This document shows, one piece after another, positions 27,930 to 40,459 of a DNA stretch of 41,938 nucleotides. A program made the translations under genes and the position numbers. Origin of the DNA: a bacterium (lineage in GTDB: Bacteria > Electryoneota > RPQS01 > DYHQ01). The notes below the pieces were generated by a model, which saw only the letters and a list, made by a program, of their open reading frames with translations, had not been told where the DNA came from and made no database searches. The stretch lies in contig JAUXGA010000017.1 of assembly GCA_030622545.1 (NCBI GenBank), forward strand, positions 1-41,938. Direction: 5' to 3'. The stretch's first letter is position 1; every line of letters begins with the position of its first letter.

Positions 27930-30900
27930 CTATTTAAGCAAGAGCATCTTCCGCGTTTGTCGCGCTGTTCCGGCTTCAAGTCGCGCAAAATAAATGCCGG
28001 ACGCAAGTCTTTCCGGTTTCCAGTAAACATCGAATACTCCGGCACTGCGTTCTTCATCTAAAAGCAAGGCAACTTGACGCCCCAAAATATCATAGACAGC
28101 TATGCGTACTCTATCGCGCGAAGGCAGACTGAAGCGGATTTTCGTTTCGCCGTTAAACGGATTCGGCCAATTCTGTTCCAATGTTACCTCGCCGGGAACC
28201 ACAACAACACGCTCCTCTTCCACACTGGAAATCACATCATCCAGAACGATGACGTCATCCAGATAGAATCCCTCATCATTGACCGATGCATCCGAAAAAA
28301 ACGTAAACCGCAGACGCGTACTCGAAAATGCTGGGAAGCCTTCTAATGGAATCGTCATCTGAATCCATTCGTCTTGATGGCCGGTCAGTGTATCGACAGG
28401 CATCCAGTTGCCCATACTCACTTGAATATCAATACGGCAGTTATCACGGCCTTCCTGCATATGATAACGCGTCTTGAATTGCAGCGTTCCGTCACCATCG
28501 AAAGGAAACGCTGTGGAGAAAAGGCTGCCATCCGACAGCTCAGGATACGTTGGATATTCCCCGAAATAGAAGGCGTGAGTCGGAGATGCGGAATGTCGCG
28601 TCTGCAAATGCCAGTAGTCTTGGCGACCGTAATGCCCCCAGTTGTTGGTCATCGGATTTTCGAAGTCATTAAAGAAATAGGCATTGCCCAATATCAAGTA
28701 AATATCTCCCTCGCCGGTCGCGTCATCATCGCCATAAAGGGTAACACGCATATGCGCCGTCGCGGGAACGTCCGCGGTCTCGCTGACGGATACGACAAAC
28801 GGATCCTGACTGGCAACCTCCGCGTGACCGGAAACCGTTCCAATCACGATTTCATCATCCAAAACCGTTACGTTAGGGTCCATGCTTTCGATAAAAGCGT
28901 GAACATTCGTCGCGGTTCCCAAGCCTTCATTAGCGACGCGAAGGTACAACTCTCCGATCTCTCCCGCCAAGAGGAAGCCGTCGCCGTCGCCTCCCGGAGG
29001 CGGATCCATAATTTCAAATTCCACTGGATAAAGCTCCGGTTCGGCGACCACATAAGTTTCCTCAAGCTCCCAGGCCGTTCCATACTGATCCTCGACCACA
29101 AACCGAAGCACAATCTCATCGCCATCTTCAGCAGAACTCCACACGCGAACGACGGCGGGATCGCTGGCATACATATCTTCACCAATAGGGACGTCTCCGA
29201 AATCCGCTTGAGAATCCTCCATCGTTGCGGGGCCGCTGACGCGCTGAACCATTGCAGAAACTCCAAAAGCGGGACTACCGCCTGAATTGGACACACCCGG
29301 AGTGAGTTCGATTCGTTCGCTGGCGTTGAATTCCGAGTTGCCGTTGCCCTGACTCTGTCCGCTGTTATCGTCATCAATCTGCACGTCAAGCATCGTCAGC
29401 TCCGGCCCGACAACTTGCAATGTCGGCAGCATCACGCACGGCTGAAGATCACCATCTGATGTCAAAAGAAAACCGACCCCTCGTCCGTTCGGGCAGGTAG
29501 GTGAAATCTGCAGCCGCAGCGGCGGCGTGGTTGTAATCGTTTCTCCCGGATGGATGGAAGGAATCGTTACCGCACTATCGAGCAGCGTCACATACGAATC
29601 ATCTTCACTCAAAATTCCTATAACCGCAGGTGAATTCACCAAGCCAAGATTTTGCAGTTGAAGCGTCAGTTCGATGGTTTCACCGTTTTGTGCAATGCCA
29701 TCTCCATTGCCGCTGCTGCCTCCCTGAGTATCATCATCGATTTCAAAACTGACCCACTGCACATAAGCCTGTTCACCACTGCGGCCTGTCGTAAAGAGAA
29801 TCGCTTTATTAGCGCGCATCATTCCCGTGCCGGGTGCTCGGATGCTGGCATGTGTAATCTGACAAGCTGTGGTTAAATCCGGTTTCTGAATTCCGACCGT
29901 CGCGAAGTTCTCATAGGTATCGGAATTGCTGAGCGCTTCATATTGAAAAAGGATTTCTCCGTCTCCGGTCGCGGTCGGCCAGCAAGCAGGATCATAAAGA
30001 ATCACCTGAAACGTCTGTTCTTCGCTGCGATGAAGCAATGTCAGGTTGTTCCATTCGATAATAAAACGGTGTCCCACGTCATCATGCCAGGTACAGATTC
30101 GGCCATGCGACTCCGTTACTAAATCATCCCAGAAAGGAGCGATTAAAGTCAACGGCGATAGTGGCGCGGGTAAAGCGTAATTGCGAAAATCTGTCCGGTT
30201 AGTATTCCCCATCGCAATCCAGCCGTTCGTGCAAATCGTGACTTGTGTGTAGGTTTGGCCGTAGTACTTAAACGGGAACGGCAAATCAACCGTTCGCGAT
30301 TTATCATCGCCCTCCGCATCATCTGTCAAACCCCAAATCACCGAACCGGGCCCTCCATCATTCGGATTGATTTCAACCCACGATAGAGCAGGAGCTTCGC
30401 GGTAGCCAATGTCCGTGTCTTCATACGCGCGGTAGCCATAAGCATCCTTCGGTGTCGGGTCGTCGCTGGTCAATTCGCCGATGGACACAGAGAACGGCAC
30501 ATGAATCTCATCATCGTTCACCTGCAGTACAAGCAGCAAGTCCGCCACATCGCCGGGAATCAAATCGCTCGAAACAGTAAGCTGAAAACCATCATCCGTG
30601 CAATAAGAAGAATCTCCCGGTAAGATTTCAGCGAAGGTTGCCGTGCTGTCAATGACATCCACTCCGCTTGTCAAAGCTCGCAGTGTTACGCTGACCAGCG
30701 GCAGAGAAGCACGTCCCATGTTTCCCAGACTGAAATCAACAATGGCTGTCTCGCCGGGATTCGCAAACCGGTATTCCCCGCCAATAAGCGTAGATTGAAT
30801 CCATAGAACAGGGCTCATCACATCCACATCCTGAACCCAGGAAACATCACTGGGTTCAATGCGCCACTCGAGATGTAACAGCGCTCCATCCGACGTCGCT

Positions 30901-33107
30901 TCAAGAATTTTAAAACGCACATATCCCGGCAGCGCATCCGCGCCGGACGCAAGCGACGGCACGGTCAGAACGCTGTCGAGAATCGTAACGGAAACCTGAG
31001 ACGTTTGCAGAATAAGCTCTCCTCCTCCATAAGCCGCGCCGCCAAAATTATACAGGTGCGGCTGCAGAGCAATTATTTCTCCCGGATTGGCAAATTCATC
31101 GCCGTTGCCTGAGCTTCCGTTGGAGCCGTCATCAACGAAATCCGTCACCGTCGCGCCGACGAAACTCTCCGCGGATGACAATAGAACCACCGTCTCGATA
31201 ATCGGCTCATAGAGAGGCTTCGTAATCGTAACCGTCACATCACTCGCATCTGATTGCGGAAGAGGAAGGCTGAGGCGACCATCCGTATCGGCAACTCCCC
31301 GACTGAAAACTTCATCACCCACCGACACCGTCGCCCATGTCTCTGCAAGCGGTTCCTCTTCGCTCATCGTGATGATTTCAAGAGCCGGCTGGCCGAGCGC
31401 AACTTCCGCGTCGAAATCCGCACTCAACTCACGCGGCGCGCCAACAAAGTAGGTGAGACCCGGATCGCCGAGAATGTTGTAAGTATGAAAGTAAAAATGA
31501 ACGGAATTAAAAGACTCTCCCGGTGCAAGATTATTCGGGAACTGCCGCATGACTTCCATTTTGCCGCGCAACTGTGCCGCACCGAATGTATTGATACCTT
31601 CGTATAGAATTCCCAAGTACATTCCCGCATCCAGCGTGTTGTTCCACCGCGTCTTCGTATCATGTTCCGACGGGCCGCAAAAAGCGACAGCGCCTTTAGG
31701 ATTGTTGGGTGTGCCTTCACGGATCCATGCTTCACCAAAACATGGATCAGTATAGGATACAAAATCGCCGCCGCCGCAAACGATACCGGTTACAATAGGC
31801 AGCTTCCAGCCATTGCTAAGGTTCTGGACGTCTTCTACTTCGAAACTTGGCGGCCACCAGCCCGATGGCGAACCGAAACCGCGATAATTGACAAAGCTGA
31901 CGCCATTATTAATTCTCTGGCTAATCTGACCGGGGCTACCGCCCGGATAGCGAACCGTGTCAACAACTGTATATCCATGATCCAGCAGACGGTCGCGAAT
32001 CCACAGCTTCGTTTCCCAGGCGGAAGTCAAATTCGGGTAGTAGCGATACGCTCCAATCATCAAAGCACGTGTCCGCCAAGCACCGTCAGGTTCGTAAGGT
32101 GTCTTCTCATAATAAACGGTCTTGGCAACCACCGTGCGAAGTTCCGTTTCTGTATCGACGGACAACCTACCTATAAGAACATCGGGCAAATAATCTTCAC
32201 CGTCTATCATCGTATAGGGATGGTCCGTACACATCAGAGGTGTATAGGTTGCACTAACCATAAACGTCGGAATCGCATAGCTGCCATTATTATCACCAAC
32301 CAACACGACAAAAACCGGCGGTTCATCCCATGTGTCGTAGGCGTTTTGAATATAATCACGGATATCCTCTTTAGTCGTGCCGCCAATATCATCTGTGGAA
32401 ACAACCGTCACCGTATGACCGCGCTGGCGTTTCCAGTCGGCAAAATCCTGCAGCGCATCCACACTCGAACCGGCTTTATGGATAACAAGGTACGGCTCAG
32501 GATGGCGTTCCGGCACAGGCGGCAATTCATCCAAATTCCCCGCGACAGACGCGATGACATCCATAAACGTCGGTGATAAATTACGCGTAGATGCCGCACT
32601 GCCAGAGCGCGTATAAGTCATCTGCACACGGTAATCCGTACAGATGCGCACGTTCTGTCCATCTTCCGATGGCTGCAGAGCGTTGAAGCTGAATGTCGAA
32701 AGGGGGATTCCGCGCATCATCGCAACTTGCCCGGCCGTGCCGAGTGGCAACGGTTCATCCCGGACAACCTGCCTGAGCGAATCGCTGATTTCTCCCGGCG
32801 CGGCTTCCCGCCAAGCGTAAGGAATCACATCAACCGTCACCGCTTCGGTTCCGGCAGGCAAAACCCACAACAGCCCCGCCGAAAACGGGCGAGCCTGAGT
32901 ATCCGCGCGGGGATCAAGCGGCGCATCGAGCGCAGGCAGCTCTTCCCGAACAGCGAATTCCGCTCCGGAGCTGGAGCTGTAAACTTCAGAAATAGAAAGC
33001 TGTTTTGAGGCAACAGGTGTTTCGTCGCTCATAACCGTCGCATATAGAGGCAAAATTCCTGAACCAATCATACATAAAGCAATAATAAATCGTAAAGAGT
33101 TCAACAT
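27930..33107 (-). CDS. Giant secreted C25 (gingipain-type) peptidase with T9SS sorting domain
   Basis: A 1,725-residue exported protein. A signal peptide (to about 24) and a pro-region (25-200) precede a C25 caspase-fold domain (about 205-560; landmarks YLVIHKAGSS, VVLVGDNNGSYAIPT, LPDVLIGRLSV, VNYRGFGSPSGWW, GIVCGGGDF, CFGEAWIREG). The catalytic Cys region is kept (about Cys444), but the His expected in the family's G-H-G position is Phe411. Behind it come at least four Ig-like modules, each opening with a G-x-G-N-G-D/E stretch and N-x-GE, a possible Ca site, and a lectin-like region with WGHYGRQDYWHLQT. The last 85 residues (LEQNWPNPFNGETKIRFSLP ... GIYFARLEAG ... KMLLLK) are a type A FlgD-like sorting domain that sends cargo out through type IX secretion. 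AAAGGA seven bases before the ATG at 33107 decides the start. Confidence 0.92.
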   Translation of the reverse strand: MLNSLRFIIALCMIGSGILPLYATVMSDETPVASKQLSISEVYSSSSGAEFAVREELPALDAPLDPRADTQARPFSAGLLWVLPAGTEAVTVDVIPYAWREAAPGEISDSLRQVVRDEPLPLGTAGQVAMMRGIPLSTFSFNALQPSEDGQNVRICTDYRVQMTYTRSGSAASTRNLSPTFMDVIASVAGNLDELPPVPERHPEPYLVIHKAGSSVDALQDFADWKRQRGHTVTVVSTDDIGGTTKEDIRDYIQNAYDTWDEPPVFVVLVGDNNGSYAIPTFMVSATYTPLMCTDHPYTMIDGEDYLPDVLIGRLSVDTETELRTVVAKTVYYEKTPYEPDGAWRTRALMIGAYRYYPNLTSAWETKLWIRDRLLDHGYTVVDTVRYPGGSPGQISQRINNGVSFVNYRGFGSPSGWWPPSFEVEDVQNLSNGWKLPIVTGIVCGGGDFVSYTDPCFGEAWIREGTPNNPKGAVAFCGPSEHDTKTRWNNTLDAGMYLGILYEGINTFGAAQLRGKMEVMRQFPNNLAPGESFNSVHFYFHTYNILGDPGLTYFVGAPRELSADFDAEVALGQPALEIITMSEEEPLAETWATVSVGDEVFSRGVADTDGRLSLPLPQSDASDVTVTITKPLYEPIIETVVLLSSAESFVGATVTDFVDDGSNGSSGNGDEFANPGEIIALQPHLYNFGGAAYGGGELILQTSQVSVTILDSVLTVPSLASGADALPGYVRFKILEATSDGALLHLEWRIEPSDVSWVQDVDVMSPVLWIQSTLIGGEYRFANPGETAIVDFSLGNMGRASLPLVSVTLRALTSGVDVIDSTATFAEILPGDSSYCTDDGFQLTVSSDLIPGDVADLLLVLQVNDDEIHVPFSVSIGELTSDDPTPKDAYGYRAYEDTDIGYREAPALSWVEINPNDGGPGSVIWGLTDDAEGDDKSRTVDLPFPFKYYGQTYTQVTICTNGWIAMGNTNRTDFRNYALPAPLSPLTLIAPFWDDLVTESHGRICTWHDDVGHRFIIEWNNLTLLHRSEEQTFQVILYDPACWPTATGDGEILFQYEALSNSDTYENFATVGIQKPDLTTACQITHASIRAPGTGMMRANKAILFTTGRSGEQAYVQWVSFEIDDDTQGGSSGNGDGIAQNGETIELTLQLQNLGLVNSPAVIGILSEDDSYVTLLDSAVTIPSIHPGETITTTPPLRLQISPTCPNGRGVGFLLTSDGDLQPCVMLPTLQVVGPELTMLDVQIDDDNSGQSQGNGNSEFNASERIELTPGVSNSGGSPAFGVSAMVQRVSGPATMEDSQADFGDVPIGEDMYASDPAVVRVWSSAEDGDEIVLRFVVEDQYGTAWELEETYVVAEPELYPVEFEIMDPPPGGDGDGFLLAGEIGELYLRVANEGLGTATNVHAFIESMDPNVTVLDDEIVIGTVSGHAEVASQDPFVVSVSETADVPATAHMRVTLYGDDDATGEGDIYLILGNAYFFNDFENPMTNNWGHYGRQDYWHLQTRHSASPTHAFYFGEYPTYPELSDGSLFSTAFPFDGDGTLQFKTRYHMQEGRDNCRIDIQVSMGNWMPVDTLTGHQDEWIQMTIPLEGFPAFSSTRLRFTFFSDASVNDEGFYLDDVIVLDDVISSVEEERVVVVPGEVTLEQNWPNPFNGETKIRFSLPSRDRVRIAVYDILGRQVALLLDEERSAGVFDVYWKPERLASGIYFARLEAGTARQTRKMLLLK

Positions 33108-33204
33108 CACATAGTCCTTTTGAGTATCTCGCAGTCCATATTTTTTTGGTGGTTTGTCTCGCAGTTCTTGTGAAGGATTACAATGGAGATTCTGCTGATT
33201 CTAC

Positions 33205-34695: not shown

Positions 34696-35736
34696 ATGCG
34701 CATTGCTATGTTGTCTCCGATTGCCTGGCGGACTCCGCCCCGGCATTACGGTCCGTGGGAGCGCGTCGCTTCCCTGCTCACGGAAGGGCTGGTACGCTCG
34801 GGTGTGGACGTGACGATGTTTGCGACGGCGGATTCCGTTACGCGCGCTAAGCTGTGTTCGGTGACCAAACGAGGGTACGAAGAGGAAGACACCATCCTCC
34901 CCAAGGTGGTGGAGTGCCTGCACATCTCGGAGGTGTTCGAGCGTTCGGCGGAGTTCGACTTGATTCACAATCACTTTGACTTTCTACCGCTTACTTACAG
35001 CCGGCTGGTTGACACGCCAGTTGTCACCACGATCCACGGGTTCTCATCACCGAAGATCCTGCCCGTCTATCGGAAGTACAACAACACGGCGTACTACGTA
35101 TCGATCAGCGACGCCCACCGCGCCGAAGATTTGGACTACGTCGCCACCGTGCATCACGGCATTGACATCGAGAACTTCACGTTTCGGTCCAAGCCGGGTG
35201 GTGACTACCTCCTGTTCTTCGGCCGGATTCATCACGACAAGGGCGCAAAGGAGGCCATCGAAATCGCCCGGCGTTCCGGTCGCCGGTTGATCATGGCCGG
35301 AATCGTTCAGGACGAAGAATACTACGACCAGTTCGTCAGGCCGCATCTGAACGATCCGGATATTGAGTATGTCGGCAGTGTGGGGCCGAAGGACCGGGAT
35401 TGCATTCTCGGAGACGCCTGTGCGCTGCTGCACCCGATCAACTTCGCCGAGCCGTTCGGTCTGTCAGTTGTGGAGTCCATGGCCTGCGGCACTCCCGTGA
35501 TTGCATTCAACCGGGGCAGCATGCCGGAGATCATCGTGAATGGCCGTAATGGGTTTCTCGTGAACGACGTGGACGGTGCCGTGGAGGCCGTGGCCAGGAT
35601 CAATCGGTTAGATCGAGCCGTCAGTCGGCGGATCGTTGAAGAACGTTTCACAGTCGATGCGATGGTAACCAAGTACATCAAGGTCTACGAAGCTATTCTT
35701 GAAAGGCGGGTCCATCCCGATTCGACCGATGAGTAA
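34696..35736 (+). CDS. GT4-family glycosyltransferase
   Basis: A 346-residue retaining glycosyltransferase with the GT-B fold, which transfers a sugar from a nucleotide donor. It opens with the N-terminal Rossmann motif RIAMLSPIAWRTPPRHYGPWE and includes LIHNHFDFLP, VTTIHGF and VSISDAHR. The C-terminal donor domain starts YLLFFGRIHHDKGAKEAIEIA and contains the E-x7-E motif in full (E252 and E260 in EPFGLSVVESMACGTPVIA). No membrane anchor, so it works in the cytoplasm. It is first in a cluster with two GH130 proteins and a second glycosyltransferase and overlaps the next gene by 8 bp. The donor sugar is not readable from sequence; GDP-mannose is a guess from the GH130 neighbours. Codon use is more GC-rich than to the left of the tRNA. 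Confidence 0.9.
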   Translation: MRIAMLSPIAWRTPPRHYGPWERVASLLTEGLVRSGVDVTMFATADSVTRAKLCSVTKRGYEEEDTILPKVVECLHISEVFERSAEFDLIHNHFDFLPLTYSRLVDTPVVTTIHGFSSPKILPVYRKYNNTAYYVSISDAHRAEDLDYVATVHHGIDIENFTFRSKPGGDYLLFFGRIHHDKGAKEAIEIARRSGRRLIMAGIVQDEEYYDQFVRPHLNDPDIEYVGSVGPKDRDCILGDACALLHPINFAEPFGLSVVESMACGTPVIAFNRGSMPEIIVNGRNGFLVNDVDGAVEAVARINRLDRAVSRRIVEERFTVDAMVTKYIKVYEAILERRVHPDSTDE

Positions 35737-36676
35737 GTCACCTGTTGTTAAGCGATACAAACGCAATCCCATTCTGACAAAGGACGACGTACCTTACCCC
35801 GTGGCGACGGTGCACAACGCGGGGGTGGTGAAGCACAACGGGCAATACGTCATGCTCTTCCGGTCTCACCGGCACAACGGCCGCTCGATCATCGGGAAAG
35901 CTGTGAGCACGGACGGGATTCACTTCAAGGTAGTTGCGGAACCATTCCTGACTCCGGCGACGGAAGGAATCTTCGCCGAGTATGAAGCTTTCGGAGTAGA
36001 GGACTTACGCATCTGTCCTATGCCCGAAGAAGGATACCTGCTGACCTACAGCGGCTACTCACCTCACGGCGTGCGCATCATACTCGCGCGGACCTACGAT
36101 TTTAAGAAGGTAGAACGCATTGCTCCCATCAGTCAAGCGGATATGCGAAACGTGATCATCTTCCCGCAGAAGTTCAATGGCAAGTACGTACGCCTAGACC
36201 GGCCGCATTCGGAGATCTCTCCCTGGTCGATCTGGATCTCCTTTTCGCCGGATCTCGTTCACTGGGGGAACTCCCGGGTCATCATGAAGCCAGCGAAGTA
36301 TCACTGGGACGAAATGAAGGTCGGCCCAGGGGCGACTCCGATTCGTACGGATGACGGCTGGCTGCACATCTTCCACGGGGTGTATTCAACGATGGATGGT
36401 TCCGTCTATCGCCTCGGAGTCGCGCTGCATGACCTCAATGATCCCTCCAGAATCCTCGGCGTGGCCGACGACTGGATCCTGCAGCCCGAGGATCCATGGG
36501 AAATCGCAGGATACGTTCACAATGTGGTCTTCACCTGTGGCGCCATCCCCGAGGAAAATGGCACCGTCAGGATCTACTGGGGAGGAGCGGATACCGTGAT
36601 GTGTACGGGCGTGGCAGATATCTCGCGACTCGTCGAGCTTTGTCTTCATCATTCCCGGCCACCCATGCCAAACTAA
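35729..36676 (+). CDS. GH130-family glycoside phosphorylase or hydrolase, short form
   Basis: A 315-residue five-bladed beta-propeller enzyme of family GH130, most members of which split beta-mannosides with phosphate and release mannose 1-phosphate, reversibly. Family signs: NPILTKDDVPYPVATVHNAG at the N-terminus; FGVEDLRI with the general-acid Asp92; RLDRPH (157-160); the sequence MKVGPGATPIRTDDGWLHIFHG (196-217); VALHDLNDPSRIL; and HNVVFTCGAIPEENGTVRIYWGGAD. Basic residues typical of phosphate binding are present (R158, K197, H216), which favours a phosphorylase over a hydrolase, but I cannot prove this. The ATG at 35729 overlaps the preceding gene by 8 bp. Confidence 0.9.
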   Translation: MSKSPVVKRYKRNPILTKDDVPYPVATVHNAGVVKHNGQYVMLFRSHRHNGRSIIGKAVSTDGIHFKVVAEPFLTPATEGIFAEYEAFGVEDLRICPMPEEGYLLTYSGYSPHGVRIILARTYDFKKVERIAPISQADMRNVIIFPQKFNGKYVRLDRPHSEISPWSIWISFSPDLVHWGNSRVIMKPAKYHWDEMKVGPGATPIRTDDGWLHIFHGVYSTMDGSVYRLGVALHDLNDPSRILGVADDWILQPEDPWEIAGYVHNVVFTCGAIPEENGTVRIYWGGADTVMCTGVADISRLVELCLHHSRPPMPN

Positions 36677-36707
36677 TCATACGACAACGATAACAAACGA
36701 TAAGCCG

Positions 36708-38993
36708 GTGTATTCAAAACCCAAACTCAATTCCATTGCCGTGATCGGCAACTATCTTCCGCGGCGATGCGGCATCGCGACCTTCACAACCGATCTGTGT
36801 GAAGCGCTGGCGGCCGAGCTGCCAAGCGCTGATAAGGTGATTGCGATTGCAATGAACGACATCGATGAAGGATATCCATATCCCGATCGCGTGAAGTTCG
36901 AGGTTCGTGACCAAGACCCATCCGACTATCTGCGCGCGGCGGAGTTTCTGAATCTCAGCGGAACTGATGTGGTAATCCTCCAGCACGAATATGGGATCTT
37001 TGGAGGACCGAGTGGTTCCAACATCTTTCAGCTTCTGAACAACCTGAGAATGCCAATCTTGACCACATTGCACACGATTGGTCTGGACCCCACGCAGGAT
37101 CAGAAGTGGATACTTTCGGAGCTCGGACGGATCTCCGATCAACTAATCGTGATGAACCGCAAATCCATTGAAGTACTGAAGGATGTCTACGGGGTTCCGG
37201 AACACAAGGTTACCTTCATTCCCCACGGTATTCCTGATGTTCCCTTCACAGATCTGATCTCCTGCAAGGGCCGGTTTGAAATTGAAGGCCGTAAGGTCCT
37301 GCTGACGTTCGGATTGCTGGGGCCGGGGAAGGGGATCGAAAGTGTGATCAGGGCGATGCCGCACATCACGAAGCACCATAAGGACGTCCTATACGTTATT
37401 CTGGGTGCCACCCATCCGCATGTCATGAAAACCGTGGGCGAAGGATATCGCCACAACCTGCAGCAACTGGCTCGGGATCTCGCTGTCGACAGCAATGTGA
37501 GATTCTACGACCAATTCCTGGATCTGCAGTCATTGGCTCAGTTTATCAGGGCGGCCGACGTTTACGTAACCCCGTATCCATCGAGAAATCAGATTGTGTC
37601 CGGCACGCTGAGTTACGCACTTGGAATCGGGGCAGCGGTCGTCTCTACTCCGTACTTGTATGCGGAGGAGATGCTTGCCGACGGCCGTGGAGTCTTGGTT
37701 CCGTTTGACGATCCGGGCGCTATGGGCCAGGCGATTGCCAAGTTGCTGTCCGACGACGCGGCCCGCAACACGATGCGTAAGAAGGCATACCAGTACTGCC
37801 GATCCATGGTATGGAAAGAGGTCGCTCGTACCTACATGAAAACTATCCGCGAGACTCTGCACCACAACGCTGCCGTTCCCCGTTCCCCGGCCAAGATATT
37901 GCGAACTCGCGAGCCGGAGGCCCTGCCCACGATAAAACTGGACCACCTGCGAGTGTTGACCGACGATACCGGTATCCTGCAGCATGCCTTCTTTTCCATG
38001 TCTGACCCGGACCACGGCTACTGTGTAGACGACAACGCGCGGGCATTGATCGTCAGCTGCAAGTATTATCGGCGGACACTGGACGATACGGTTGTTCCAT
38101 TGATTAAAACCTATCTCGCATTCCTCCGGCACGCTCTCAATCGCGAGCGCGGGCGTTATCACAATTTCCTGTCCTATGGTCGTCAGTGGATGGACGCGGC
38201 GGGCGACGACGATTGCCACGGCCGGGCGCTCTGGGGCTTGGGTGTGGCGACGGCGATGGCGCCGGATGAGCTGACTCGCGCCGGGAGTGCAGCTCTGTTC
38301 ATTGAGAGCATGTATGCCGTGGTGGAATTCACCTCACCACGAGGCATGGCTTTTGCGCTCCTCGGGTTGCATTTCTACTTGAATGTCTATTCGGGCAATA
38401 CGACGGCACGAAAACTGCAACAGGATCTGGCGATGAAGCTCCTCGAATTGTTCCAGATAAACACAACTGATGACTGGCCATGGTGCGAAGACATGCTGGC
38501 CTACGCCAACGGCCGCCTCCCGGAAGCGCTAATGTTGTCCGGTCAGGATCTGGGCGAGTCGGAAATGGTGGAGACCGGGAGGAAATCGTTGACATGGCTT
38601 CTTGACATCCAGACGAACGAGCGGGGTCAGTTGTCCGTAATCGGCAATGATGGATGGATGACGCGTGGAGGTCACCGGGCGCATTTCGGTCAACAGCCCA
38701 TCGAGATAACGGCTCTGATTGATGCGTGTGCTGCGGCGTATCGCGTTACGGACGATGGCGAGTTTGTGCAGGAAGCCCGGCGCTGTCTTGACTGGTTCTT
38801 CGGCCGCAACGAATTGTGCCTGCCGCTGTATGATTCCAAGACCGGCGGCTGCTGTGACGGCCTCGAGCAGCATGGCGTGAATCAGAACATGGGAGCCGAG
38901 TCCACTCTCGCGGGATTGATGTCACTGCTTACAGTCCAAGACTTATTGAGGCAGGAGGTACGGTTGAAAGATCAGCAGGATATCGTCACGTAG
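36708..38993 (+). CDS. GT4-like glycosyltransferase fused to a helical (alpha/alpha)-type domain
   Basis: A 761-residue two-part protein. Residues 1-390 are a GT-B glycosyltransferase (IAVIGNYLPRRCGIATFTTDL, VVILQHEYGIFGG, ILTTLHTIG, VTFIPHGIPDVPF, LLTFGLLGPGKGIESVI). The place of the usual E-x7-E motif reads TPYPSRNQIVSGTLSYALGI, without either acidic residue. Residues about 410-750 form a helix-rich domain resembling an (alpha/alpha)6 barrel, with conserved-looking GYCVDDNARALI, DDCHGRALWGLG, HFGQQPIEITALIDAC and NQNMGAESTLAGLMSL. Asp and Glu in these motifs could be catalytic. I do not know a biochemical function for this fusion. The start is a GTG with no good ribosome site, 31 bp after the GH130 gene; the next gene starts 8 bp after the stop. 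Confidence 0.85.
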   Translation: MYSKPKLNSIAVIGNYLPRRCGIATFTTDLCEALAAELPSADKVIAIAMNDIDEGYPYPDRVKFEVRDQDPSDYLRAAEFLNLSGTDVVILQHEYGIFGGPSGSNIFQLLNNLRMPILTTLHTIGLDPTQDQKWILSELGRISDQLIVMNRKSIEVLKDVYGVPEHKVTFIPHGIPDVPFTDLISCKGRFEIEGRKVLLTFGLLGPGKGIESVIRAMPHITKHHKDVLYVILGATHPHVMKTVGEGYRHNLQQLARDLAVDSNVRFYDQFLDLQSLAQFIRAADVYVTPYPSRNQIVSGTLSYALGIGAAVVSTPYLYAEEMLADGRGVLVPFDDPGAMGQAIAKLLSDDAARNTMRKKAYQYCRSMVWKEVARTYMKTIRETLHHNAAVPRSPAKILRTREPEALPTIKLDHLRVLTDDTGILQHAFFSMSDPDHGYCVDDNARALIVSCKYYRRTLDDTVVPLIKTYLAFLRHALNRERGRYHNFLSYGRQWMDAAGDDDCHGRALWGLGVATAMAPDELTRAGSAALFIESMYAVVEFTSPRGMAFALLGLHFYLNVYSGNTTARKLQQDLAMKLLELFQINTTDDWPWCEDMLAYANGRLPEALMLSGQDLGESEMVETGRKSLTWLLDIQTNERGQLSVIGNDGWMTRGGHRAHFGQQPIEITALIDACAAAYRVTDDGEFVQEARRCLDWFFGRNELCLPLYDSKTGGCCDGLEQHGVNQNMGAESTLAGLMSLLTVQDLLRQEVRLKDQQDIVT

Positions 38994-39001
38994 GTGGAAG
39001 C

Positions 39002-40459
39002 ATGAGTCCAATCACTCTATCCAGAATGCGGCGGTCCTTGACCAGCGACCCGTCGCGAGTCATTACACGCTTCTACTACCCGAGCGGTCAGAAGCACGCG
39101 GAGCGTGTGGTGCAGCGCGTGCTGTCCCTGAATAGTGAGCAGCGACAGCAGACTATGCAATCGGTGCTGGAGGAGTTCGCTGCACGACACCACAACATCG
39201 AGCGCGTTCTCCGTACCAATTTCCGCAGAGTCGCCGATCTGCACGATCTGGACGGCAAGGTGCCATCCGATGCCCAGCTCTTGATTGGTGCGTACTTCAC
39301 GCACGAATACTCGGTGGAGTCCACCGCGCTGTTCAACCCGTCGATCGTGCCTCACCCGGACCAGTCCAACCTGCCGACGGGGGCGATACGGTTTGTCATG
39401 AGTCTGCGCGCAGTAGGGGAAGGTCACATCTCGTCGATTGTCTTTCGCAGCGGTACCCTGCATGAGGACGGCCCTATGATCTATGATGCTGTCAGCCCCA
39501 TCGCCGAGATTCCGATTCCGGAGTTCGACCCCTACTATGATAAGCACACGTTTACTCTCAAGCTGGATGAGATGCGTGCCCACAATAAGACCAGCGAGCG
39601 GATCTTCGCTGGCCTTCCTGATCACTTTCCGTCACAAGACCTCATTGCACGGCTCGAGGAAGAAAAGAATAGGGGAGAACATACGCAGGCGGAGCGTGAA
39701 ACCATCGAAACCATCGAGACGATCGCCGAGTCGAACTACACGCTGACCTTTCGCAAAGACACGGACCTCGCGGAGCGAGTAATCTTTCCCGTGGCCCGCG
39801 GGGAAAGCAACGGCATCGAAGATGCGCGCTTTGTGCGCTTCGTGGAAGAGTCAGGCGAAGTTCGCTATCTCGCTACCTATACCGCCTTTGATGGCCATTC
39901 CATATTCCCGATGCTGCTAGAGACCCGGGATTTTCTGGTGTTTGACATGCGCACACTAAACGGCAAGGCAGCGGTCGGAAAAGACCTGGCTCTCTTCCCG
40001 CGCAAGCTCAACGGGAACTACTGCATGATCTCGCGGCAAGACGGCGAAAACCTGTTCATCATGCATTCGAACAATCTGCATTTCTGGCATGAATGTGAGC
40101 AGATTCAGGTACCGAAGTACAGTTGGGAGTTTATGCAGATCGGCAACTGTGGTGCACCCATTGAAACAGAGCAGGGCTGGCTGTTGTTGACACACGGCGT
40201 CGGACCCATGCGAAAATACAGCATCGGAGCAGAGCTGCTGGACATAGAGAAACCTTCCCGGGTGATCAGGCGACTGGGAGAACCGCTGATCGTACCGAAT
40301 GAGTATCAGCGCGAGGGCTATGTCCCTAATGTCGTGTACACCTGCGGTGCGATGGTGCATGGCGATAACCTGATCATTCCGTACTCTGTATCCGATACCT
40401 ACACGGGAGTTGTAACCACGAAGCTGAACATGTTGCTGGACAGCATGAAACAGGTCTGA
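39002..40459 (+). CDS. GH130-family glycoside phosphorylase or hydrolase, long form
   Basis: A 485-residue GH130 protein with an N-terminal helical extension of about 90 residues (QKHAERVVQRVLSLNSEQRQQTMQSVL ...) that the short form lacks, and a charged insert near 185-245. Core motifs are GAYFTHEYSVESTALFNPSIV, NGIEDARF with general-acid Asp274, FPRKLNGNYCMISRQDGEN, MQIGNCGAPIETEQGWLLLTHGVG, SIGAELLDIEKPSRVIRRL and GYVPNVVYTCGAMVHGDNLIIPYSVSD. The ATG at 39002 has GTGGAAG close upstream. Paired GH130 genes of different type are known for beta-1,2-oligomannan and beta-1,2-mannobiose phosphorylases in Thermoanaerobacter; that parallel suggests a polymer-acting and a disaccharide-acting pair here. 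It is the last gene of the cluster. Confidence 0.9.
   Translation: MSPITLSRMRRSLTSDPSRVITRFYYPSGQKHAERVVQRVLSLNSEQRQQTMQSVLEEFAARHHNIERVLRTNFRRVADLHDLDGKVPSDAQLLIGAYFTHEYSVESTALFNPSIVPHPDQSNLPTGAIRFVMSLRAVGEGHISSIVFRSGTLHEDGPMIYDAVSPIAEIPIPEFDPYYDKHTFTLKLDEMRAHNKTSERIFAGLPDHFPSQDLIARLEEEKNRGEHTQAERETIETIETIAESNYTLTFRKDTDLAERVIFPVARGESNGIEDARFVRFVEESGEVRYLATYTAFDGHSIFPMLLETRDFLVFDMRTLNGKAAVGKDLALFPRKLNGNYCMISRQDGENLFIMHSNNLHFWHECEQIQVPKYSWEFMQIGNCGAPIETEQGWLLLTHGVGPMRKYSIGAELLDIEKPSRVIRRLGEPLIVPNEYQREGYVPNVVYTCGAMVHGDNLIIPYSVSDTYTGVVTTKLNMLLDSMKQV

Follow-up and report, generated by a model that had tools for sequence, protein, structure and literature searches.

Why do two glycosyltransferase genes of family GT4 stand next to two genes for dissimilar GH130 proteins on one strand of contig JAUXGA010000017.1 (assembly GCA_030622545.1), from a bacterium of the Electryoneota, and what do the four proteins make or break? 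The stretch analysed, hereafter called the window, comprises positions 1 to 41,938 of this contig (41,938 nucleotides). The genes, hereafter called GT4a, GH130a, GT4b and GH130b, occupy 34696-40459 of its + strand in that order, with all four open reading frames (ORFs) intact. Comparison with other genomes sorts them into two cognate pairs, GT4a with GH130a, and GT4b with GH130b or a third GH130 type, GH130c, and shows their association to be that of a conserved module and no accident of this locus. Our explanation, to which we give about an even chance of being right, is that the operon consists of two matched GT4-GH130 pairs which make and turn over a cytoplasmic mannose-containing oligosaccharide or small glycoside. 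The features are as follows.

34696..35736, + strand: GT4a, a GT4 glycosyltransferase of 346 amino acids
35729..36676, + strand: GH130a, a GH130 protein of the GT4a-paired clade, predicted mannoside phosphorylase
36708..38993, + strand: GT4b, 761 amino acids from a GTG start, a GT4-like transferase fused to a C-terminal (alpha/alpha) domain, hub of the module
37860..38990, + strand: the C-terminal (alpha/alpha) domain of GT4b, without a Pfam family and with strictly conserved acidic residues
39002..40459, + strand: GH130b, 485 amino acids with a helical N-terminal extension and an insert, partner of GT4b

The start of GH130a was listed as a TTG at 35699, but the ATG at 35729, which gives an 8-nt overlap with the stop of GT4a, is likelier. 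Spacers of 31 nt (GH130a-GT4b) and 8 nt (GT4b-GH130b) and the shared strand are, as read from the sequence alone, the layout of a single operon. GT4 domains were found with Pfam in GT4a and in residues 22-365 of GT4b, and PF04041 (GH130) in GH130a (3.7e-52) and GH130b (1.7e-30). ORFs and domains thus bear out an earlier note on this DNA, which had described two glycosyltransferase and two GH130 genes, adjacent and on the same strand.

Homologues of GT4b (cut-off E <= 1e-60) are present in 62 of the 386 genomes sampled. The flanks were read for most of these 62 genomes, together with six loci from named genomes and eight plasmid loci; many of the loci are from metagenome bins, the longest ORF was simply taken as the gene, and the census includes some near-duplicate loci. 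Of the 54 loci with a fused GT4b, 45 have a GH130 gene within 3.5 kb, as do 5 of the 19 loci in which the glycosyltransferase and (alpha/alpha) parts are separate or partial. Named carriers are Ilyobacter, Rhizobium, Sinorhizobium, Neorhizobium, Devosia, Sphingomonas, Sphingobium, Novosphingobium, Deinococcus, Syntrophaceae and Phycisphaerales. The earlier note had suggested looking for the same four-gene order elsewhere, and all four genes stand together at eight loci, that of the window included, in several orders (GT4a-GH130a-GH130b-GT4b on plasmid pILYOP02 of Ilyobacter polytropus), while at five further loci GH130c replaces GH130b in the four-gene set. Over the 386 genomes the genes co-occur pairwise with p from 1.6e-5 to 1e-21 (GT4b with GH130a, 9e-12; GT4b with GH130b, 1e-10; GT4a with GH130a, 1e-21), values which ignore kinship among the genomes and are to be taken as strong, not exact. 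Chance adjacency is ruled out by these values and by recurrence in many phyla. No relatives were found on viral contigs.

The pairing is strict. Close GT4a proteins (at least 54 % identity) occur in 15 genomes, and GH130a is directly adjacent in all 15; the pair is found in one genome which has no GT4b (L099) and lies on a different contig from GT4b at L103 and L104. Among the GT4b loci, 23 have GH130b and 23 have GH130c, and none has both. A maximum-likelihood tree places the 17 rows of GH130a in one clade and the 24 of GH130b in another, both with support of 100/100; GH130c is mixed. More distant relatives of GT4a (41-43 % identity, L112-L116) mostly adjoin a protein of about 720-750 amino acids, a separate recurring two-gene pair.

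The catalytic Asp is present in GH130a, GH130b and all 63 aligned homologues. The alignment columns that we take to be those of the phosphate site were assigned partly by the numbering of Uhgb_MP. In GH130a the phosphate-site R, R, K and H are kept along with the catalytic Asp in 17 of 17 clade members, and because all of these residues are present the protein is predicted to be a mannoside phosphorylase; a hydrolase-only GH130 was rejected for GH130a on the phosphate-site residues. Its first phosphate-site position is Arg, like that of beta-1,4-acting enzymes, and the Glu beside the catalytic Asp is like that of beta-1,2-acting ones, a mixture from which the acceptor is not predictable. GH130b keeps K, R and H, and has Gln at the Lys212-equivalent position, as do 20 of 23 homologues, not the Glu that GH130 hydrolases carry in place of basic phosphate-binding residues (Cuskin et al., PMC4599007). 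Gln is neither the hydrolase Glu nor Lys, and elsewhere the place of GH130b is taken by GH130c, whose site is intact; we therefore read GH130b as probably a phosphorylase or synthase that binds phosphate in an altered way. The earlier note would have been contradicted by two hydrolase-only proteins; GH130a keeps all and GH130b most of the phosphorylase residues.

At the first phosphate-site position, GH130b and GH130c have Lys, as in beta-1,2 enzymes, and the best PDB score of the GH130b profile was with 9fj8, a 1,2-beta-oligomannan phosphorylase. Both window proteins fall under the curated cut-offs of the NCBIfam models for characterised GH130 types (beta-1,2-mannobiose phosphorylase and others), GH130a with 223 bits against a cut-off of 550 and 201 against 450, GH130b with 140 and 137 bits. 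The AlphaFold2 model of GH130b (predicted local distance difference test, pLDDT, 41.5) was too poor for use. The host genome encodes a third, very distant GH130-like protein (L003, 1012-2271, in G000 contig C4), which begins with a signal-like segment and ends in a sorting-type tail.

The two transferases differ at the donor site. GT4a has the motif EPFGLSVVE, a canonical E-x7-E, and its nearest solved relative is the cyanobacterial glucosylsucrose synthase TeGSS (7fg9, 273 bits), of which Tyr18 and the diphosphate Arg, Lys and Glu, including the catalytic Tyr and Arg, are conserved in GT4a (alignment inspected against PMC9909042); the apparent likeness to glucosylsucrose synthase is one of homology and catalytic residues. 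In GT4b, Q-x7-Y replaces E-x7-E at residues 295-303, as in nearly all of 51 aligned sequences, and the replacement spans homologues from several phyla. GT4b is, to judge from these residues, GT4-like with an unusual donor site. In a Foldseek search with its AlphaFold2 model (pLDDT 69.9, moderate) all the matches listed were GT-B, the nearest including PimB', PimA and MshA.

The C-terminal part of the GT4b model is all-helical. Residues from about 400 to 761 matched no Pfam family, and the sole PDB relative, a weak one, is 7TEM (Yersinia YPO2471, of unknown function); the (alpha/alpha) fold class was assigned because of the helix content and this relative. Four acidic residues of the domain, D441, D442, D717 and E731, are invariant, and in many other genomes the (alpha/alpha) part is a separate gene adjoining a glycosyltransferase.

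A link to mannose supply was seen in part of the loci. In an unseeded test, the 78 genes close to GT4b loci and on their strand were compared with Pfam. Apart from glycosyltransferases, the commonest families were NTP_transferase (5), PGM_PMM (3) and mannose-6-phosphate isomerase/ManC (3), while importer, flippase and polymerase families each had fewer than two members. In a seeded count, 17 mannose-type genes were near and 2 far, or 11 and 2 after removal of the seeds (p=0.016). Most GT4b loci are without an adjacent mannose-supply gene. Plasmid loci include the arrangements manA-GT4b-GH130b, GMP-manA-GT4b-GH130b-PMM and GT4b-GH130b-AGE epimerase. The host genome has a candidate mannose-1-phosphate guanylyltransferase elsewhere, and a search of it confined to type I mannose-6-phosphate isomerase found no match to the C-terminal domain of that type.

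Two sphingomonad conjugative plasmids (L041, L042) carry the GT4b-GH130b pair, one copy near groES-groEL and usg and the other near pentose-phosphate and HAD genes, surroundings which look like a stress or carbon-storage island. In Sphingomonas melonis Fr1, a 'Glycosyltransferase' gene (#1750) adjoins one labelled 'Glycosidases' (#1751), and both belong to the most strongly EcfG-dependent genes of the general stress response (PMC6599016); they may be the GT4b-GH130b pair. In six plasmid loci, no EcfG-type motif was found ahead of the core genes.

How, then, could two such pairs work together? GT4 enzymes are retaining and form alpha bonds from guanosine diphosphate mannose (GDP-mannose) or uridine diphosphate glucose (UDP-glucose), whereas GH130 enzymes are inverting and act on beta-mannosides, so the two enzyme types cannot share one bond. 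A retaining mechanism has been argued for TeGSS (PMC9909042). The earlier note had proposed that the transferases assemble the product and the phosphorylases take it back, and for a single bond this fails; a make-and-recover module stands as far as it is intracellular and mannose-linked, GDP-mannose genes being recurrent, but only with a separate alpha core and beta units. In the explanation that we favour, each GT4 would use a nucleotide sugar to form an alpha-linked core, the donor most likely being GDP-mannose for GT4b and either UDP-glucose or GDP-mannose for GT4a. The paired GH130 would then reversibly add or remove a beta-mannosyl unit on this core with mannose 1-phosphate, which when freed would return to GDP-mannose, and the (alpha/alpha) domain of GT4b would be another enzyme with that molecule as its substrate. 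The product may be a compatible solute or a small reserve.

Such chemistry, an alpha core with a beta-mannosyl cap, has a precedent in the characterised GH130 enzyme Uhgb_MS, a mixed-linkage mannoside synthase which uses mannose 1-phosphate on mannose and on alpha-1,2-mannobiose, with listed products that include beta-1,2-mannobiose and beta-Man-(1->2)-alpha-1,2-mannotriose (PMC8950772 Table 1). Uhgb_MS (9eqq, 9erg, 9erh) is, however, a gut metagenome enzyme, scoring about 150 bits to GH130a and 145 bits to the profile of GH130b. The observations behind our explanation are the pairs, their recurrence across phyla, the residues of phosphorylase type and, for some of the loci, the linkage to GDP-mannose genes, and from these we infer the direction in vivo, the product and its role. 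A more specific version, namely an unrecognised bacterial pathway crossing phyla in which the retaining GT4s build the core and the GH130s first add beta-mannosyl units from mannose 1-phosphate and later recover them, giving a cytosolic alpha/beta-mannosylated oligosaccharide, is proposed tentatively.

Several observations weigh against the make-and-turn-over explanation. No mannose gene lies next to the operon in the host genome. The Gln of GH130b and of 20 of its 23 homologues replaces a basic phosphate-binding residue, and GT4b, lacking E-x7-E, is possibly no ordinary nucleotide-sugar transferase. Proteins closely related to GH130a and GH130b occur in ABC-importer (ATP-binding cassette) loci without glycosyltransferase genes (L100, L101, L109), so that enzymes of these types can serve plain uptake and catabolism. 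The host genome has two glgC-type genes and the host probably already stores glycogen; with glycogen available, we lean towards a solute over a reserve.

The alternative which survives best, though we hold it unlikely, is salvage, in which the GH130 pair phosphorolyses imported beta-mannosides and the GT4s merely consume the resulting GDP-mannose. A cluster in Thermoanaerobacter does unite an ABC importer, a GH5 protein, a mannose-1-phosphate guanylyltransferase, a GT4 and two GH130 proteins (PMC4264767), and at the three importer loci just named the GH130a or GH130b relatives stand beside ABC sugar importers and another GH130, L109 adding a GH2-like mannosidase. These importer loci, however, have neither GT4a nor GT4b, no importer adjoins the operon or recurs as a family among the 78 neighbours, and salvage would leave the strict GT4-GH130 pairing unexplained.

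Synthesis of a surface glycan or glycoconjugate (capsule, lipopolysaccharide, glycolipid or glycoprotein), in which the GH130s would trim precursors or recycle them, is more doubtful still. GT4 enzymes are frequent in such loci, and PimB', PimA and MshA are among the nearest folds listed for GT4b, but across phyla the module has unrelated housekeeping neighbours, no polymerase, flippase or export gene recurs and a single Alginate_exp instance was found among the 78 neighbours. A capsule or lipopolysaccharide context was rejected on this neighbourhood census, and the consistent placement in such loci that the earlier note had held would speak against it did not occur. Its claim that the four proteins have no signal peptide agrees with N-termini none of which is strongly hydrophobic (no dedicated signal-peptide predictor was run), and no membrane or signal segment was seen in the four proteins.

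Least probable is a cytosolic beta-mannan store like the mannogen of Leishmania, polymerised by the GH130s themselves, the GT4s making no more than a primer, for although GH130b and GH130c share the Lys of beta-1,2-acting enzymes, GH130b matches 9fj8 best and the Thermoanaerobacter relatives make beta-1,2-oligomannan in vitro (PMC4264767), membership of GT108, the Leishmania family, was rejected (no GT108 chain, such as Leishmania MTP, 6q50, among the 18 PDB matches of the GH130b profile at E <= 1), two specialised transferases with two specialised GH130s fit a hetero-oligosaccharide better, and there is no evidence of a polymer.

On the opposite strand, the operon is flanked upstream by a gene for an unknown protein and one for a C25 peptidase with a secretion tail, and downstream by a small RRM protein; no transporter, polymerase or export gene adjoins it in the window, in agreement with the earlier note as far as the flanking genes go. 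The C25 (gingipain-type) peptidase, of 1726 amino acids at 27933-33110, has a Por secretion tail, which suggests that the host possesses a type IX secretion system.

In a literature search for the four-gene set, in which subscription journals were thinly covered, only the Thermoanaerobacter cluster was found. For the GT108 system of Leishmania, we know of no paired GT4 genes. The Leishmania system of mannosyltransferase-phosphorylases (MTPs) and mannogen turnover (reviewed in PMC8950772) resembles the module in that beta-propeller enzymes make and break a cytosolic beta-mannoside. In Thermoanaerobacter, Teth514_1786 is a GT4, _1787 a mannose-1-phosphate guanylyltransferase and _1788 and _1789 are GH130 beta-1,2-mannoside phosphorylases, and the authors remarked that the genus had no known source of the substrate (PMC4264767). 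Both clusters link a GT4 (likened by family) and two dissimilar cytoplasmic GH130s to GDP-mannose supply. Theirs, in which one GT4 goes with an ABC importer and a GH5, was interpreted as serving uptake and salvage; the operon in the window includes two GT4s, one of them fused to an (alpha/alpha) domain, and adjoins no importer. TeGSS, which makes an alpha-1,2-linked stress oligosaccharide (PMC9909042), is the nearest solved relative of GT4a; the group of GT4a itself (54-69 % identical to it) is paired with GH130a, unlike relatives of about 42 %, which adjoin a different protein of about 720 amino acids. The bacterial layout, which the earlier note had called new, is therefore new in its four-gene form and not in joining a GT4 with two GH130s. 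New are the four genes as a set, the two cognate pairs, the exchange of GH130b and GH130c, the (alpha/alpha) domain, and a spread over phyla and plasmids in which importers do not accompany the genes.

GH130 phosphorylases have almost always been assigned to the breakdown of mannans from plants, yeasts or hosts, and here they are tied pairwise to glycosyltransferases. The hub of the module, GT4b, carries a conserved, enzyme-like (alpha/alpha) domain outside Pfam and is present in about one sixth of the sampled bacterial genomes, on chromosomes and on conjugative plasmids, with GDP-mannose genes near in part of the cases. If the pathway proposed is true, bacterial beta-mannosyl bonds would be formed in it without a classical beta-mannosyltransferase. 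Because the pairing is strict, four proteins and a few substrates would suffice to test the question, and the carriers Ilyobacter polytropus and sphingomonads are culturable. The pattern points to a common, still unnamed cytosolic mannose compound.

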